From Rhizomys pruinosus (taxonomy: Eukaryota > Chordata > Mammalia > Rodentia > Spalacidae), in contig VZQC01005745.1 in assembly GCA_009823505.1 (NCBI GenBank), forward strand, positions 371,984 to 435,983: a stretch of 64,000 nt of DNA, given 5' to 3'. The notes beneath the pieces are model-generated. The model was given only the letters and a program-made list of their open reading frames with translations. It did no database searches and was not told the origin of the DNA. The position numbers were made by a program, and so were the translations under genes. Shown piece by piece: positions 4,007 through 62,127 of the stretch. Each line of letters starts with the position of its first letter. Within the stretch, counting starts at the first letter, position 1.

Positions 4007-4370
4007 AAAAGAATAAGGACAGGGGGCTGGAGAATGGCCTAGCGGTTAAGAGCACCGACCGCTCTTACAGAGGACCCGGGTTCGATCCCCAGCACCCACA
4101 TGGCAGCCGAGAACTGTCTGAAACTCCAATTCCAGTAGAACTCCAGTTCCAGGGGAATCCGACACCCTCTTCTGACCTCCACGGCATTGCATGACACGGG
4201 TGCACAGACTTGCATGCAGACAGTACATTCATACACNGTTCCAGGGGAATCCGACACCCTCTTCTGACCTCCACGGCATTGCATGACACGGGTGCACAGA
4301 CTTGCATGCAGACAGTACATTCATACACATACAGAAATAAATAAAATTAAAAAAAAAGAATAAGGACAGG
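4007..4370 (+). mobile_element. B2-type SINE, falsely lengthened at an N
   Basis: tRNA-derived SINE starting GGGGCTGGAGA with A box TGGCCTAGCGG and B box GGTTCGATCCC. Target-site duplication AAAAGAATAAGGACAGG lies at 4007-4023 and 4354-4370. A single N at 4237 sits between two identical 91-bp copies of its 3' half (4146-4236 and 4238-4328). The real element is probably about 92 bp shorter. Confidence 0.92.
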
Positions 4371-7451: not shown

Positions 7452-8579
7452 AGTGACAAAGCATTCAAGCCATGGGACTATGGTTATTTGTGTTCTTTTC
7501 CAATTGTTCTGCAATAAAAACCAACTACTTTTAAAGTCAGAACAAATAAATTCTATTCTGTGTATAATATAATGTTAACTAGTTGAAAATATCTGTACTT
7601 GCTCTTCTATGCTCTGAAGTACATTTAAATTATATTTCATATTTATGTAAATATATACATCTAATTTAGTACACATTTGCATACATATTTTGCCCTTATG
7701 TTACTCTCTCAGCATAGTTCTGATTTAAACTTTCCTGTGTAAGTCAAAGTTCTACTAACATGAGCTCACACTCCCAAAACTATGAGTTCTCAACAGTGAA
7801 GACATAAGTTTTTTCATCTTTGGTCAATGTCATAGAATGCAAAAAATAATCAAATATTTCAAACATAAGATTTAAGTATATATTCAGACTCTACCATCTT
7901 TAAAGGTCAGTGGGTTTCAAATATAAAGCCACCAAAAGAAAGATATAGTTTCCATGATCATCAGATGATAAAGCCTTTGTTAACATTATGTACTAAAGAA
8001 ACCTCTACGTTGTATTTTGAAGAGACCCAAATAAGTGCAATTTAAACTCAATAAAAATTTCAAGGGGAAATAAACTACATTCTGAAAACACTGTATTAGA
8101 ATAAGAGGGTTAGTCTAATAAAAACGTAAACCAATTGTCTCTATTCAGAGTGAGACACCAACAAATCCAATTAAATACACAGATTTCATGACATTTTGAT
8201 ATATTTTAGAGAGTGCCTTGAAGAGACGTACAGGGCATACATGGCTACATCTAATTGAATCAGTAATTCTGCCACTGACATTCACTGAATGCTTATTACC
8301 AGTCACTGAAAAGATGCCAGGATTCACAATCAAAAGAACTATACTCAGAGAATAAATCTTAATTGTATCCTACAGCAACCCTTCCTATATTGTGTATGGG
8401 TTCTCAGTTCTGTGACAGATGAGCTGGCTTCACATCATTCCACCTCTTACATCTGTCTCACATGCATATCTACACATATAATTTGCTACATTTGCATGAA
8501 AATTGCAGAAAATATAATATAATCAAGGTGTCAGAGACTAGGACTCTCTATCTGGTCTTCAGACATCATACTCTCAGCC
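7452..8579. other. Unique AT-rich DNA
   Basis: No recognisable repeat, coding or RNA signal. Confidence 0.55.
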
Positions 8580-8909
8580 CTCTAACTTTAGCCCATGCTA
8601 CTCTTGTCCATTAGCATATCCCTACAGCTTGGATCTCTAACTTTAGCCCATGTGACTCTTGTCCATTAGCACAACCCTACAGCTTGGACCTCTAACTTTA
8701 GCCCATGTGACCCTTGTCCATTAGCACAGCCCTACAGCTTGGACCTTTAACTTTAGCCCATGTGACCTTTGTCCATTAGCACATCCCTACAGCTTGGACC
8801 TCTAACTTTAGCCCATGTGACTCTTGTCCATTAGTACATCCCTACAGCTTGGACCTCTAACTTTAGCCCATGTGACTCTTGTCCATTAGCACATCCCTAC
8901 AGCTTGGAC
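8580..8909 (+). repeat. Minisatellite, 55-bp unit x 6
   Basis: Six consecutive 55-bp units beginning CTCTAACTTTAGCCCATG and ending CTACAGCTTGGAC, without length variation. Copies differ at scattered single positions (for example GACTCTTG/GACCCTTG/GACCTTTG). The array ends exactly at 8909. No spacers are present, so this is not a CRISPR-like array. Confidence 0.95.
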
Positions 8910-9044
8910 CTCATTTCTTTTGCAATTTAAATCTTCTTTCCAGCTTCTGAAGCATCTAGCTAGTTCCTTGACATTCTGAAATATGTGGGAGTCCATTCTT
9001 TTGCTTCAGACTAAGCTGAGATGCAAGTTTAAGAAACCTAGAAC

Positions 9045-15217: not shown

Positions 15218-15415
15218 ATGGCATTGTTGAGTAACGTTAGCATATCTGTATCCTGGTAGATGTTGTTGAGTAACATTAGCCTATCTGTGTCCTGGTAGAT
15301 GTCGTTGAGTAACGTTAGCCTATCTGTGTCCTGGTAGATGTTGCTGAGTAACGTTAGCCTGGTCCTGGTAGATGTCGTTGAGTAACGTTAGCCTATCTGT
15401 GTCCTGGTAGATGTT
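15218..15415 (+). repeat. Minisatellite, 39-bp unit x about 5
   Basis: Tandem units reading TTGTTGAGTAACGTTAGCCT followed by ATCTGTGTCCTGGTAGATG. One unit has lost the ATCTGT segment. Single changes such as ACATTAG/ACGTTAG distinguish copies. Confidence 0.93.
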
Positions 15416-17577: not shown

Positions 17578-18410
17578 ACATTTCTGTTGTGAAAAAATAC
17601 CATTACCAAGGTAAATTATAGAAGGAAAAGTTTATTTGGCTTACGGTTCCAGAGGGATGAGAGTCCATCATACCATCTAGGCAGCAGAGGCAGCCAAGAA
17701 GACAGCTGAGAGCTCACATCTACAAGCACATGCAGAGGGATGAGAGTCCATCATACCATCTAGGCAGCAGAGGCAGCCTAGCAGACAGCTGAGAGCTCAC
17801 ATCTACAAGCACATGCAGAGGGAGAGAGTCCATCATACCATCTAGGCAGCAGAGGCAGCCAAGCAGACAGCTGAGAGCTCACATCTACAAGCACATGCAG
17901 AGGGATGAGAGTCCATCATACCATCTAGGCAGCAGAGGCAGCCAAGCAGACAGCTGAGAGCTCACATCTACAAGCACATGCAGAGGGATGAGAGTCCATC
18001 ATACCATCTAGGCAGCAGAGGCAGCCAAGCAGACAGCCGAGAGCTCACATCTACAAGCACATGCAGAGGGATGAGAGTCCATCATGCCATCTAGGCAGCA
18101 GAGGCAGCCGAGCAGACAGCCGAGAGCTCACATCTACAAGAACATGCAGAGGGATGAGAGTCCATCATACCATCTAGGTAGCAGAGGCAGCTGAGCAGAC
18201 AGCTGAGAGCTCACATCTACAAGCACATGCAGGAAGCAGAGAAGGTAAAATTGCAAATGAGATTGGGCTGTGAACTCTCAGCACCCGCCCCATGACTTGC
18301 TTTCTCCAGAGCAACCTCATCTGGGAAACCTCCCCAAACTGTGCCACTAACTGACAAAGTATTTAAGCACTTGGTGCCTATGGGGGACATTTTTATCAAA
18401 CCACAACAGT
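17578..18410 (-). mobile_element. hAT/URR-like repeat enlarged by an internal minisatellite
   Basis: Starts CATTTCTGTTGTGAAAAAATACC, continues AAAGTTTATTTGGCTTACGG and ends TGGGGGACATTTTTATCAAACCACAAC, the reversed layout of a common rodent repeat. Between its two unique ends, a single 83-bp segment is amplified to seven copies (17651-18230). Confidence 0.6.
17651..18230 (+). repeat. Minisatellite, 83-bp unit x 7
   Basis: Seven units of AGAGGGATGAGAGTCCATCA... ending ...CTACAAGCACATGC. One unit lacks a single base. Differences are few (AAGAAG/AAGCAG, CAGCTGAG/CAGCCGAG), which points to recent expansion from part of the surrounding repeat. Confidence 0.96.
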
Positions 18411-22594: not shown

Positions 22595-22850
22595 TTTTTG
22601 AGACAGGATCTCCCTTTAGTCCCAGATGGCCTAGAGCTAGCTCTGTAGACCAGGCTGGCCTTGAACTCACAGAGATCTGCCTGCCTCTGCCTCCCAAGTG
22701 CTGAGATTAAAGGCATGTGCCACCATGCCAGGCCTAAGTCAGTTCTTAGCCATGATGTGGGTGCTGGGAATCAAACCCTGGTCCTCTGCAAAAGCAGTCA
22801 GTGCTCTTAACCACTGAGCCATCTCTCCAGCCCCCAATCTTAATAATCTT
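22533..22850 (-). mobile_element. Chimeric SINE: B2 head joined to B1
   Basis: Read on the minus strand, the element is a B2-type tRNA head (22837 down to 22736; GGCTGGAGAGATGGCTCAGTGG, B box GGTTTGATTCC). The head is joined directly to a B1 (22735-22594) and a (CA)n tail (22593-22546). A single exact 13-bp duplication, TCTTAATAATCTT, flanks the whole (22533-22545 and 22838-22850). The two parts therefore appear to have been inserted as one unit, comparable in design to the known B4 (ID head plus B1) but with a B2-type head. Confidence 0.85.
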
Positions 22851-22974
22851 TTAATTTTAATAAATAGCTAAAGTATGGGATGTTTTGGGACTTTTGAGAT
22901 TTTCAGTATATTTAAATATTCTGTATGTGAAGCTATCTACATTCTTCTGTCCAACTTTTAACCATGTACTCACT

Positions 22975-23193
22975 TAATAAAATGAAAATCAAACATCTAA
23001 CACATCCTAGGCACTATCCTTGATTCAAGCAGTTTAAAGTGTTTACCAAGAAATTTTGTATGCCCTTTACAGTTAACTGTTTGAGTAAGGAATTCATCCA
23101 TCTCCACTTTATGTATGAAACAGTCGAGAAGCAGAGTTAGGATATATTTCATGGGGCCACACAACAAATAGATCTTACAGCAATGACAAACTT
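22975..23193 (-). mobile_element. MIR fragment (antisense)
   Basis: CCTAGGCACTATCCTTGATTC and CATCTCCACTTTATGTATGAAAC ... CACACAACAAATAG match the antisense MIR/MIR-like pattern (cancellation of the GAGGAAACTGAGGC motif region). It stops at the inverted repeat. Confidence 0.5.
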
Positions 23194-24142
23194 TATATGT
23201 GTCTTGAGTGTTGTATGTGGGTATTGTTTCTGTATGTGTAATTCTAGAGCTAATGTTTACCAGTCCTCTCAGAGATTCTGAGAACTACCTAATGCCATTT
23301 AATAATTACCTAGTTGGAATGGAAATTGGCCAGATTTTGTTTTCTTGTTTGCAATTAAAACCAGTAATGAACATGCTTCTCTTACCCTTATGCACCACAA
23401 TAGAAATTTCCCACAGAAGCTAATGAATTTTTGTTCTCAGTAGTCAGCACATTGGAATTTTGGTTACATTGTATCATGTCTTAGGTGAAGATTCCTGGGA
23501 AGCATCTTTACTCCATCTTGGCACTGTGCCCATCACTTTGAGATCTAAATCCATGAGATTTGGAGCTCTTAGTCTTCTGGGTAAACATACCTGGAAAGAC
23601 CTAATAATGTTAATCTTGGAATTCAATGGAAGATCTTGTAGCCTGAAGGGTATTTGCTCCAACACTAGGATTTCTCAGATATCGACCCCTTCAAAACTGG
23701 TCCCTCTGGAAAGAATCATTTTACCTAGGTCCAATGGCTGTTTTACATGGAGAACATTCAGAGAATCATTCTAGTTGGATGTCCCTCCTGTGAAACCACA
23801 CCACAATGGAGGATCTCCCTCCTGCTCAGTCTGCTTCCCAGGAATCTTCACCTAAGACTTGATACAATGTAACCAAAATTCCAATGTGCTGACTACTGAG
23901 AACAAAAATTCATTAGCTTCTGTGGGAAATTTCTTTTGTGGTGCATAAGGGTAAGAGAAGCATGTTCATTACTGGTTTTAATTGCAAACAAGAAAACAAA
24001 ATCTGGCCAATTTCCATTCCAACTAGGTAATTATTAAATGGCATTAGGTAGTTCTCAGAATCTCTGAGAGGACTGGTAAACATTAGCTCTAGAATTACAC
24101 ATACAGAAACAATACCCACATACAACACTCAGGACACATATA
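23194..24142. repeat. Large inverted repeat: 311-bp arms, 327-bp loop
   Basis: Left arm 23194-23504 and right arm 23832-24142 are reverse complements with only three mismatches that I can count (about 99% identity) and no gaps. The arm tips read TATATGTGTC / GACACATATA. The loop (23505-23831) is not repeated elsewhere in the window. The open frames inside the arms (71 codons each, near-identical) simply mirror each other. No target-site duplication outside the arms was found. It resembles a foldback structure, but no known family is recognised. Confidence 0.95.
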
Positions 24143-24149
24143 ATAATAT

Positions 24150-24515
24150 TCATTATCACATGTGATAACTGGCAACATCCAGAATCCCCTGAGACCTCCA
24201 TGCATGGCTGTGGAAGATTATCTTGATTCTATTAATTGAGGTGGAAAGACCTCTTCACCATGGGTGTCACGATTCCCTGGCTGGGATGCTAGATGCTATA
24301 AATGGAGAAAGGGAACTGAGTAGCAGTAGGCACTCTTACTCTCTGTTTACTGACTATGACTCGTATACAACCACCTGCTTCCAGCTTCTGCCATCTTGAC
24401 TTCCCTGCTGTGATGTCCTATACCCTTGAACAGTGAGCCAGAAGAAATCCTTTCTGCCTTAATTTGCTTTTGTCAGAGTATTTTATCACAGGGAGAGGAG
24501 AAGAAACTAAGACAA
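24150..24515 (+). mobile_element. Old rodent repeat, hAT/URR-like (sense), 5' end missing
   Basis: Internal GATTATCTTGATTCTATTAATTGAGGTGG and terminal CCCTGCTGTGATGTCC ... TTGCTTTTGTCAGAGTATTTTATCACAG ... AAGAAACTAAGACAA. The 5' end is truncated at or near the inverted repeat. Confidence 0.55.
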
Positions 24516-38423: not shown

Positions 38424-39255
38424 AACTTTCTTAACTAAATCTCGATGGTTATATAAAACATAACTTGTAGATAGTTTGAACCCTTGTGATTTTTTTTCTT
38501 TATTTCAGTTACAAGGAAGCCCGTAGTTCCATTTCAGGTTTTTCGTCTCATTAATAACAGAATTTAGAAACAGACTCAGAAGAATTGACAATAATTTTAG
38601 TAGATGTTGAGAGAAAAGCAAAAGGGTAAGCAAGTTGTAAATCTCAGCAGCTGCCTGGAAGAGGAGGCTGGAGAAGAAGAAAGAGAGACATGTTTTTGAG
38701 TTAGAATTCAAGAAAGCAGGCACATTTAGCAGGAGTGCCAAACAGCAACATGGTGGAAAGGGGGGAAGTTTCAAAGAAAGCATGAGCAAGCCCAGAGTGT
38801 CCGAGAAAGCAGAACTGGGCTTTTGGACAATGCCTGAAAGAAAAATAGAAAGGAGGAAAAGGAAAAGTTGAGCCTTTAAAGTTAGCACTCAGAGAGGGGC
38901 AACACTAGTAATCCTGCCCAGTGAAAGCTGTAAACAGCCTCATCCACAGAGGGGCTTTGGGGGTACAAGTACATTTTCTTATGAAGGTGATAATTTTCCT
39001 CTCATGTCCTTAGCATATCTTCAGATGAATCAGTTTTGGAGGGAATGACCTTTTGGAAGGTGACTGATAAACCCCCCTGGATTAACTTCTTGAACAAGAA
39101 GACAATAGTACTCAATGTTCTAATCTTTTAGTGTAGAGCAGACTATCATGTCTGCCCAAGGACAAAGGTAGAACTCTGATTCCATTACTTTCAACCAGGA
39201 GGAAGTAACATTTCCTTAATGGCCTTAATATATCTCAGATACATCTACCTTTTCA
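38424..39255. other. Unique DNA
   Basis: No repeat recognised. The 127-codon minus-strand frame at 38505-38888 is leucine/serine-rich and low-complexity. No retrocopy signs, so it is not accepted as a gene. Confidence 0.45.
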
Positions 39256-40690
39256 TATAATATTTTAAATCCTAAGGAGGGGCAGTTTTGATGTTTACCT
39301 TTCTGGTGTTATAGGGTAATGCAAAGTGGGATCCAAAGCTGATGAAAAGGAGGGGATCCATCCTCAGTGACCTCCAAAGCTGCTAATTCCAATAACATTC
39401 CTACCTTAAGAGTTGAGACCCTAAAGTCATTTAGAACATGGACTAAAATAAAGGTTTAGAAAGAAAGGCTCAGTACCTACACTCATTCTGACTTTCAAGT
39501 CTTGGGTGGGGAGAGTAAGGGAATCCAGACAGAGGGAGTTAGATTGGAGTAGGAACATCAGAGAACAGATCAACTGTAAACAAAAGGAGATAAAATTAAG
39601 ATCGTTGTTCCATAGCTTCACTACTAAGATTGCAATAGATAACCGTAGACCAGGAAGGAGAGCCCCCAAATACTTCCCGCATTTCTGACTCCTGGCCAAG
39701 ACAGACACTTCTGGCTTCTTGCCAAGGAAATAAATGGAGACCCCAACCCTAAACTGTCTAACCACTTTCAATTTCCTGCTTGCATCCTCTATCTTTAGCA
39801 CAGAATATATTACCAGGCACAGCGGCTACTTAGGCACTATTTGTGGCATGAAAAAGTAAAGCTTATACTTCATGTTTTTAATGATTTTCAATATATATAT
39901 ATATATATAATATATATATANCATTTTACTTTTTAAATACAGGGGGCATTAAGTACCTTTCTCCTCTCCACACTGGCCCTTCCTTTTATATATCCTCCAG
40001 CATACAATCTACTTTTCCCATATAATATTTTATTTAAATCCTAAGGAGGGGCAGTTTTGATGTTTACCTTTCTGGTGTTATAGGGTAATGCAAAGTGGGA
40101 TCCAAAGCTGATGAAAAGGAGGGGATCCATCCTCAGTGACCTCCAAAGCTGCTAATTCCAATAACATTCCTACCTTAAGAGTTGAGACCCTAAAGTCATT
40201 TAGAACATGGACTAAAATAAAGGTTTAGAAAGAAAGGCTCAGTACCTACACTCATTCTGACTTTCAAGTCTTGGGTGGGGAGAGTAAGGGAATCCAGACA
40301 GAGGGAGTTAGATTGGAGTAGGAACATCAGAGAACAGATCAACTGTAAACAAAAGGAGATAAAATTAAGATCGTTGTTCCATAGCTTCACTACTAAGATT
40401 GCAATAGATAACCGTAGACCAGGAAGGAGAGCCCCCAAATACTTCCCGCATTTCTGACTCCTGGCCAAGACAGACACTTCTGGCTTCTTGCCAAGGAAAT
40501 AAATGGAGACCCCAACCCTAAACTGTCTAACCACTTTCAATTTCCTGCTTGCATCCTCTATCTTTAGCACAGAATATATTACCAGGCACAGCGGCTACTT
40601 AGGCACTATTTGTGGCATGAAAAAGTAAAGCTTATACTTCCGGTTTTTTAACGATTTTCAATATATATATATTATATATAATATATTATA
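39256..40690. repeat. Direct duplication around an N; likely assembly artefact
   Basis: About 39256-39900 and 40021-40670 carry the same sequence (offset 769). No difference was seen over roughly 600 bases: the 124-codon frames at 39427-39801 and 40196-40570 are identical. A single N at 39921 lies between them in an (AT)n tract. The 100 bases after the N look like a noisy version of the sequence just upstream of copy 1. A false duplication from overlapping contig ends is the simplest reading. Confidence 0.85.
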
Positions 40691-40712
40691 ATATATTATA
40701 TATATATATATA
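40662..40712. repeat. (AT)n microsatellite
   Basis: Interrupted TA-rich tract following copy 2 of the duplication. Its counterpart at 39889-39920 abuts the N. Confidence 0.9.
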
Positions 40713-50716: not shown

Positions 50717-51416
50717 TAACATACAGCATGCTTCCTGGGGTTTCATCTCTCTTGCCCCTGCCCTTACTCCACCCTCCTTTAGCCTAAACAGACTGCCCGT
50801 ACTATCCTACTATCCTGACCAGTCAGAACACCAGTCCAGACACACTTAAAAAGTGTTACAGGAAAGAAACGATATGAAAACAACCTGCAGCAGAGGAGTT
50901 GCTGCTCGACCTCACACTGTACAATATGAATCAATAGCCGGACCCCCTTTCTGAGGTTCACCCAGTTTCTGTATAGATAGGAACAGTATTAGCTGATGGG
51001 GAAATTTTCTTAGCTACTCATGCCACTCATATAAGAAAAAGAAAAAATATAATAACTAGGTTGCAGATAGTCTCCTCTCTGGTATTTAGTACAATATTCT
51101 ATACCTAGATAGTTAATGATATTTATTAATTGAAACAAAACATAGTTAAATTCTGCCAAGCATATTTGCATTCCCAGTGTTAAATATATTTAACTTCAAG
51201 ATTTCAACTCTGACCAAAATATAGAATACGTCAGCAAAGAAACTTGGTTTTCTGAAATAAATGATGTTATATGAGCCACACTGAATACTGTGGCTGGAAG
51301 AGTTTCTACAGAAGTGTCTGCAGTGTCATTAGCACACCTACTAAAACACTAATGTATGAAACAGTGCCCACTTAACACTACAGCATCGCTGATTAAAGTT
51401 AATCCCAGTATAAGCA

Positions 51417-51806
51417 CAATTGCTGGTTAATATTGACAACATCCCAGTGCAAGCACAATCACTGGTTAATGCTGACGGCTTCCCAGTGCAAGTACAATCA
51501 CTGCTTAATGCTGACGGCTTCCCAGTGCAAGTACAATCACTGGTTAATGCTGACGGCTTCCCAGTGCAAGTACAATCACTGGTTAATGCTGACGGCTTCC
51601 CAGGGCAAGTACAATCACTGGTTAATACTGACGGCTTCCCAGTGCAAGCACAATCACTGGTTAATGCTGACGGCTTCCCAGGGCAAGTACAATCACTGGT
51701 TAATGCTGACGGCTTCCCAGTGCAAGCACAATCACTGGTTAATGCTGACGGCTTCCCAGGGCAAGCACAATCACTGGTTAATGCTGACGGCTTCCCAGGG
51801 CAAGCA
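51417..51806 (+). repeat. Minisatellite, 39-bp unit x 10
   Basis: Ten exact-length units CAATCACTGGTTAATGCTGA + CGGCTTCCCAGTGCAAGCA, with a degraded half-unit before and a stub after. Variants GTGCAAG/GGGCAAG and GTA/GCA mix between units. Because 39 is a multiple of 3, open frames run through on both strands (13-residue protein repeats). These frames are a by-product and not evidence of a gene. Confidence 0.97.
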
Positions 51807-52032
51807 CAATCAAAGCTTCTATGGAACCAGCGCTTAGAAGATATTGGGCAGCAAGCATGCCACACAGAACCAGCCTCGAAACTTCCTCTGTGTTCACTCT
51901 GCTCCTTCACCTAGTTGGATACTTTCATTTATTTATCCTCTTACACATTTTTAATACACTATTCTCTTATTTTCCTATCAAGTATCCTTTTCTAAAATGA
52001 AGGAGTGATTTAGAAAAATAGAAAACATTTCA

Positions 52033-61810: not shown

Positions 61811-62005
61811 ACACAAAAATTCAATTAAAATTATACAAAAAACTTGCTTTATTAAAAAGAATAAAAGCCTTGAGACTGTAAGTACAGACTTCCCAGTCCC
61901 TGCACTGGAGCATCTGATTCTGAGCCTGTGTGTATAGAAAGCAAATGTTTTGGAAAAGATAATATAGGATTTCTAACCCCAAATAGACTGAGTAGTTACA
62001 CAGTA

Positions 62006-62127
62006 TCAAATGCTGACAACTTCCTCCATCAAATGCTGACTTCCTCCATCAAATGCTGACTTCCTCCATCAAATGCTGACTTCCTCCATCAAATGCTGAC
62101 TTCCTCCATCAAATGCTGATTTCCTCA
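62006..62127 (+). repeat. Minisatellite, 20-bp unit x 6
   Basis: First unit 23 bp (TCAAATGCTGACAACTTCCTCCA), then four exact TCAAATGCTGACTTCCTCCA units and a terminal variant. It abuts a MIR. Confidence 0.95.

Follow-up and report, generated by a model that had tools for sequence, protein, structure and literature searches.

A 312-bp segment in the genome of the rodent Rhizomys pruinosus occurs twice at one locus, as two arms in opposite orientation that differ at 1% of their positions and are the only two copies of this sequence found in the assembly. This arrangement probably arose when old single-copy DNA underwent a local inverted duplication, as a one-off event. That reading follows from the presence of the whole unit and of its loop at one place, and of the arm at two, in 3.67 Gb of assembled sequence; from CpG counts of zero, zero and one in the arms and the loop, in line with DNA that is old and non-mobile; and from outer edges that share words of at most 4 nt, together with the absence of an Rfam match and of any Pfam domain among the four open reading frames tested out of 42. 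No function is needed to explain an inverted duplication of this kind.

Geometry and content of the inverted repeat

The window, i.e., the whole stretch of 64,000 nucleotides of contig VZQC01005745.1 that was analysed, carries the left arm on the forward strand at 23193..23504 and the right arm, its reverse complement, on the reverse strand at 23832..24143, with the spacer that would form the loop at 23505..23831. The arm pair aligns over 312 bp, ungapped and with three mismatches (99.04% identity), on either side of 327 bp of spacer; in one alignment the pair runs on, at 98%, to a length of 323 bp. The mismatches fall at 23204/24132, 23401/23935 and 23477/23859—a T.G mispair at the first and T.T mispairs at the other two if the strand is folded as a hairpin—and leave runs of identity of 11, 196, 75 and 27 bp along the arms. 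No exact inverted repeat of the window with partners no more than 2 kb apart is longer than the run of 196 bp. The maximum was 14–16 bp in 10 dinucleotide-shuffled windows used as a control, and 28 bp elsewhere in the window, where each side of the locus was searched separately. The presence of the inverted repeat in the assembly is confirmed. An earlier note on this DNA, which had placed the structure at 23194–24142 with arms of 311 bp, was correct to within 1 bp per side, and its three mismatches, lack of gaps and 327-bp loop were all reproduced by alignment.

Neither arm has a CpG and the loop has one, against a window mean of about two per 312 bp, with about a quarter of all 312-bp windows having none. 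At gathering scores, Rfam gave no match in the window, and of the 42 stop-to-stop frames of at least 30 aa around the unit, the 4 that were tested held no Pfam domain above its cut-off; there was one sub-threshold match, to RADX (E 0.22), whose 9.8 bits fall short of the 33.4 required. These negatives agree with the earlier note, which had recognised no known element, and the arms and loop, judged by their sequence, look like old non-coding single-copy DNA. Across the window, no Pfam domain at E 0.01 was obtained for the 10 tested of the 64 open reading frames of at least 85 aa. A viral, phage or coding origin was considered and rejected, there being no phage match at E 0.01, no viral-contig match (one 34-base word), no Pfam domain in the frames tested and no Rfam match, with the phage and viral negatives carrying little weight here. 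A scan for bacterial promoters and terminators, uninformative for such a genome, returned six promoter-like sites against 4.1 expected and no terminators.

Within the left arm, about 17 nt (23238–23254) resemble what we take to be a conserved stretch of 18S rRNA; the likeness is probably due to chance because Rfam gave no match in the window. The window also holds many related dispersed repeats, presumably SINEs and named by us as such, in keeping with the muroid assignment.

Copy number and background frequency

The window's own assembly, of 3.67 Gb in 3,921 contigs, was searched for further copies. The 949-bp unit was found at one place, along with its own two arm-on-arm matches; the 327-bp loop alone was likewise found at one place, and the arm alone at two, both of them the arms of this locus. 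The left flank (22840–23193) has one match in the same genome. No near-identical dispersed family of the unit, the arm or the loop was found by this search, which omits very common words, scores the best candidates only and tells more strongly against near-identical copies than against old, diverged copies. Further comparisons were made within 264 kb of the same genome: there the arm and loop had no nhmmer match outside the locus, and with permissive blastn they gave short weak matches only (best E 0.03), while the repeat in the right flank had 12 further nhmmer matches with E from 1.8e-24 to 0.2. A search with the 949-bp unit had been suggested in the earlier note, by which a single copy, if supported by reads, would indicate a local inverted duplication; a single locus and no dispersed copies are what the assembly returned.

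The background was sampled in 304 kb, of which 294 kb are not N, made up of the window and 24 stretches of 10 kb each searched alone; 20 of the 24 lie on the window's contig, making this a poor genome-wide sample. The only inverted pair in it of at least 300 bp and at least 95% identity with partners at most 5 kb apart is the present one, and the remaining pairs of at least 90% identity and at least 60 bp are 88–161 bp long. The portions of the literature surveyed yielded no published density of comparable inverted pairs in rodents.

Outer edges and flanking repeats

Old repeats flank the unit on both sides. On the left, a weak MIR-like match on the reverse strand (22985..23191) ends at the arm edge, and 10 of 1000 shuffles score as well; on the right, an old URR1-like repeat on the forward strand (24156..24514 by pairwise alignment) begins about 12 bp outside the arm, with about 45 bp of the consensus absent at its 5′ end. 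Both matches were made with what we take to be the MIR and URR1 consensus sequences. The right-hand boundary depends on the aligner, in that nhmmer places the aligned part from 24193 and the envelope from 24156. The URR1-like match is the better supported of the two; URR1-like matches that start nearer the 5′ end occur in two of the sampled stretches (L005 and L022) and elsewhere in the window. The earlier note's view that the structure interrupts a MIR on the left is therefore weak; the truncated hAT/URR-like element that it saw abutting on the right starts, by pairwise alignment, some 12 bp outside the arm.

As a test of which arm is the original, the flanking repeats were also extended across the unit and compared with shuffled sequence. 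When the MIR was extended from the left flank into the left arm, the loop or the right flank, the score was reached by 500, 224 and 277 of 500 shuffles, respectively. With the 5′ end of URR1 joined to the right arm, 153 of 300 shuffles reached the score; with the loop or the left flank all 300 did, with the left arm 28 and with the reversed loop 85. Anchored extension gave, out of 1000, 953 for the right arm, 989 for the loop, 567 for the left flank, 184 for the left arm and 433 for the reversed loop. The lowest fraction, 28 of 300, belongs to the join of left arm and right flank, but it becomes 184 of 1000 under anchored extension, by which the missing 5′ end of URR1 does not stand above shuffle level in the arms, the loop or the left flank. 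When six copies of the right-flank repeat were set against three joins, with no shuffle control, the copies disagreed: the right arm with the right flank was best for three of the six, the left flank with the right flank for two and the loop with the right flank for one. An L2 match in the loop fell short of the mean of its shuffles, 474 of 500 of which reach its score, and its extension from the loop into the left arm was equalled by 285 of 500. In the MIR and URR1 tests, then, no old repeat crosses either outer edge at a score clearly above shuffle level.

The outer edges have an exact word of at most 4 nt in common, so that a target-site duplication is not convincingly seen. Since both flanking repeats stop close to an edge, insertion of the unit as a whole is mildly favoured; against this stand the lack of a donor in the assembly and the commonly fragmentary state of old repeats.

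Origin of the inverted repeat

We infer the mechanism of copying (template switching or fold-back synthesis), its direction and its age. During replication or repair, a growing strand would have jumped onto the complementary strand of this region, used it as template for about 312 nt in the reverse direction and then gone back, so that a second copy came to stand inverted at a distance of 327 bp from the first; the three differences between the arms would have been gained later. The divergence of 3 in 312 sites amounts to 0.96%, with Poisson limits of 0.2–2.8%. Rodent sequences change at 2–5e-9 per site per year, and with these rates the duplication might be about 1–2.4 million years old (0.2–7 at the Poisson limits), a figure that becomes a lower bound should gene conversion act between the arms. 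The duplication is probably recent. Two considerations run counter to so simple a history: a local copy predicts one ancestral outer edge, whereas an old-repeat match stops at the edge on the left and another begins close to it on the right; and the gold-standard template switches of great apes are far shorter, and the fold-back duplications of patients far larger, than the arms seen here.

The best surviving alternative is a variant of the duplication origin, in which an older inverted repeat has had its arms kept alike, e.g., by gene conversion; if so, the 1% divergence would not date the origin. Active maintenance of long inverted repeats has been inferred in Caenorhabditis (PMC1803023), and the identical run of 196 bp within the arms would suit it, but three differences spread over 312 bp require no conversion, and we regard this history as rather unlikely. 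The earlier note had called the arms young or homogenised, and their divergence fits both readings.

A fold-back or chimeric join made in the assembly, which the earlier note had raised as a possible artefact, is improbable to a further degree. Of the 11 N runs seen in the assembly, 4 do have a direct repeat at or near them (4237 and 39921 of the window, and in the stretches L013 and L017). Those four, however, are direct repeats at or near N, whereas the inverted repeat sits within 35 kb free of N (4238–39920), and an artefactual second arm would be expected to be identical save for sequencing error, whereas the arms differ at three sites. Because the stretch is N-free and the arms differ, an artefact is unlikely.

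The earlier note had thought a new foldback element possible. Such a transposon, or a MITE-like one, would have the 312-bp arms as its terminal inverted repeats; it would account for inverted arms around a short core and for old-repeat matches that end at or near both outer edges, but it is very hard to credit given one locus in its own genome (by a search that skips very common words), edges sharing no exact word above 4 nt and no Pfam domain in the four frames tested; on copy number (unit one, loop one, arm two), a dispersed element was rejected.

The potential for a hairpin RNA bears on what the locus might do. A transcript across the unit is predicted to fold into one long hairpin with about 310 bp of double-stranded RNA, in line with the long duplex that the earlier note had envisaged. 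The predicted energy is −655 kcal/mol, whereas 20 shuffles average −230 and never reach so low a value, and the mouse Optn gene offers (PMC11239679) a natural inverted repeat with a stem of about 300 bp and a 1-kb loop that yields low-abundance endo-siRNAs. Any inverted repeat of such length would fold well, however, and the arm is without a third near-identical copy in the assembly to serve as a target, making a functional hairpin RNA gene that yields endo-siRNAs, on the basis of this predicted fold, a very slim prospect. It would be just as bold to suppose that a recent single-event inverted copy, of a size class of about 300 bp with a 300-bp spacer, is now a transcribed source of long-hairpin double-stranded RNA. 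Maintained arms and a hairpin RNA are both compatible with the local inverted duplication, and the chances given here to the alternatives are therefore not all exclusive of one another.

Comparison with known systems

The template-switch inversions of great apes parallel the present case in that a segment is copied as a nearby reverse complement, often leaving an inverted repeat; in the gold-standard set, the copied length is 12 nt at the median and never exceeds 128 nt, as against 312 nt here with a 327-bp spacer (PMC7954356). At the other end are fold-back inverted duplications in human patients, with single-copy spacers of 766 to 70,466 bp (PMC3907307), and the palindromes of MCF-7 cells, whose spacers include 467, 657 and 2,286 bp (PMC4057610). 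Both resemble the present locus in their inverted copies around a single-copy spacer (PMC3907307, PMC4057610), but they come from patients or a tumour line, and their duplicated segments are much larger than 312 bp. The arm length seen here thus lies between the great-ape template switches and the large fold-back duplications.

The Optn repeat (PMC11239679) shares with this locus a stem of about 300 bp at one place and long double-stranded RNA, which here is predicted; it lies in an expressed gene, its small RNAs have been measured and its loop is about 1 kb, whereas the present locus, with a loop of 327 bp, is known from sequence alone. The long inverted repeats of Caenorhabditis (PMC1803023) likewise have nearly perfect long arms; there, maintenance is implied by a comparison of species, whereas here there is one genome, and gene conversion as the means is our own reading. 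Higher eukaryotic genomes are described as holding many imperfect and near-perfect long inverted repeats, and those with a stem above 30 bp, identity above 85% and a spacer below 2 kb are classed as recombinogenic; by geometry alone, the present locus falls within the class set out for the human genome (PMC4319165).

The inverted repeat is a structural change at one locus, and on its own it matters little. It may be used as a data point in estimating the frequency of mid-size inverted copying in mammals, and it is a natural locus at which to ask whether a 300-bp hairpin gets cleaved, edited or lost. A further lesson is that copy number within the same genome should be tested before a foldback element is named.

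Other repeats in the window

Two direct repeats of the window lie at or near N runs. At 4146–4236 and 4238–4328, a perfect 91-bp direct repeat has the single N of position 4237 between its copies and looks like contig ends left unmerged. A direct duplication of about 700 bp (39225–39928 and 39985–40698), whose first copy contains a single N close to its end, at 39921, has all of its 24 differing columns near the two ends and an identical middle of about 600 bp; it is probably an assembly overlap and gives two identical frames of 132 aa. Direct repeats abutting N runs elsewhere on the window's contig (L013 1010–3716 and L017 4840–5080) belong to the same class of error.

Tandem arrays are a further feature of the window. 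Those at 8579–8912 (55-bp unit), 17650–18232 (83-bp), 15224–15415 (39-bp) and 62005–62126 (20-bp) match at 87–97%. Another array, with a 39-bp unit in 10.5 copies at 51341–51914, is open on both strands as repeats of 13 residues, with a frame of 189 aa on the reverse strand and frames of 166 and 144 aa on the forward strand.
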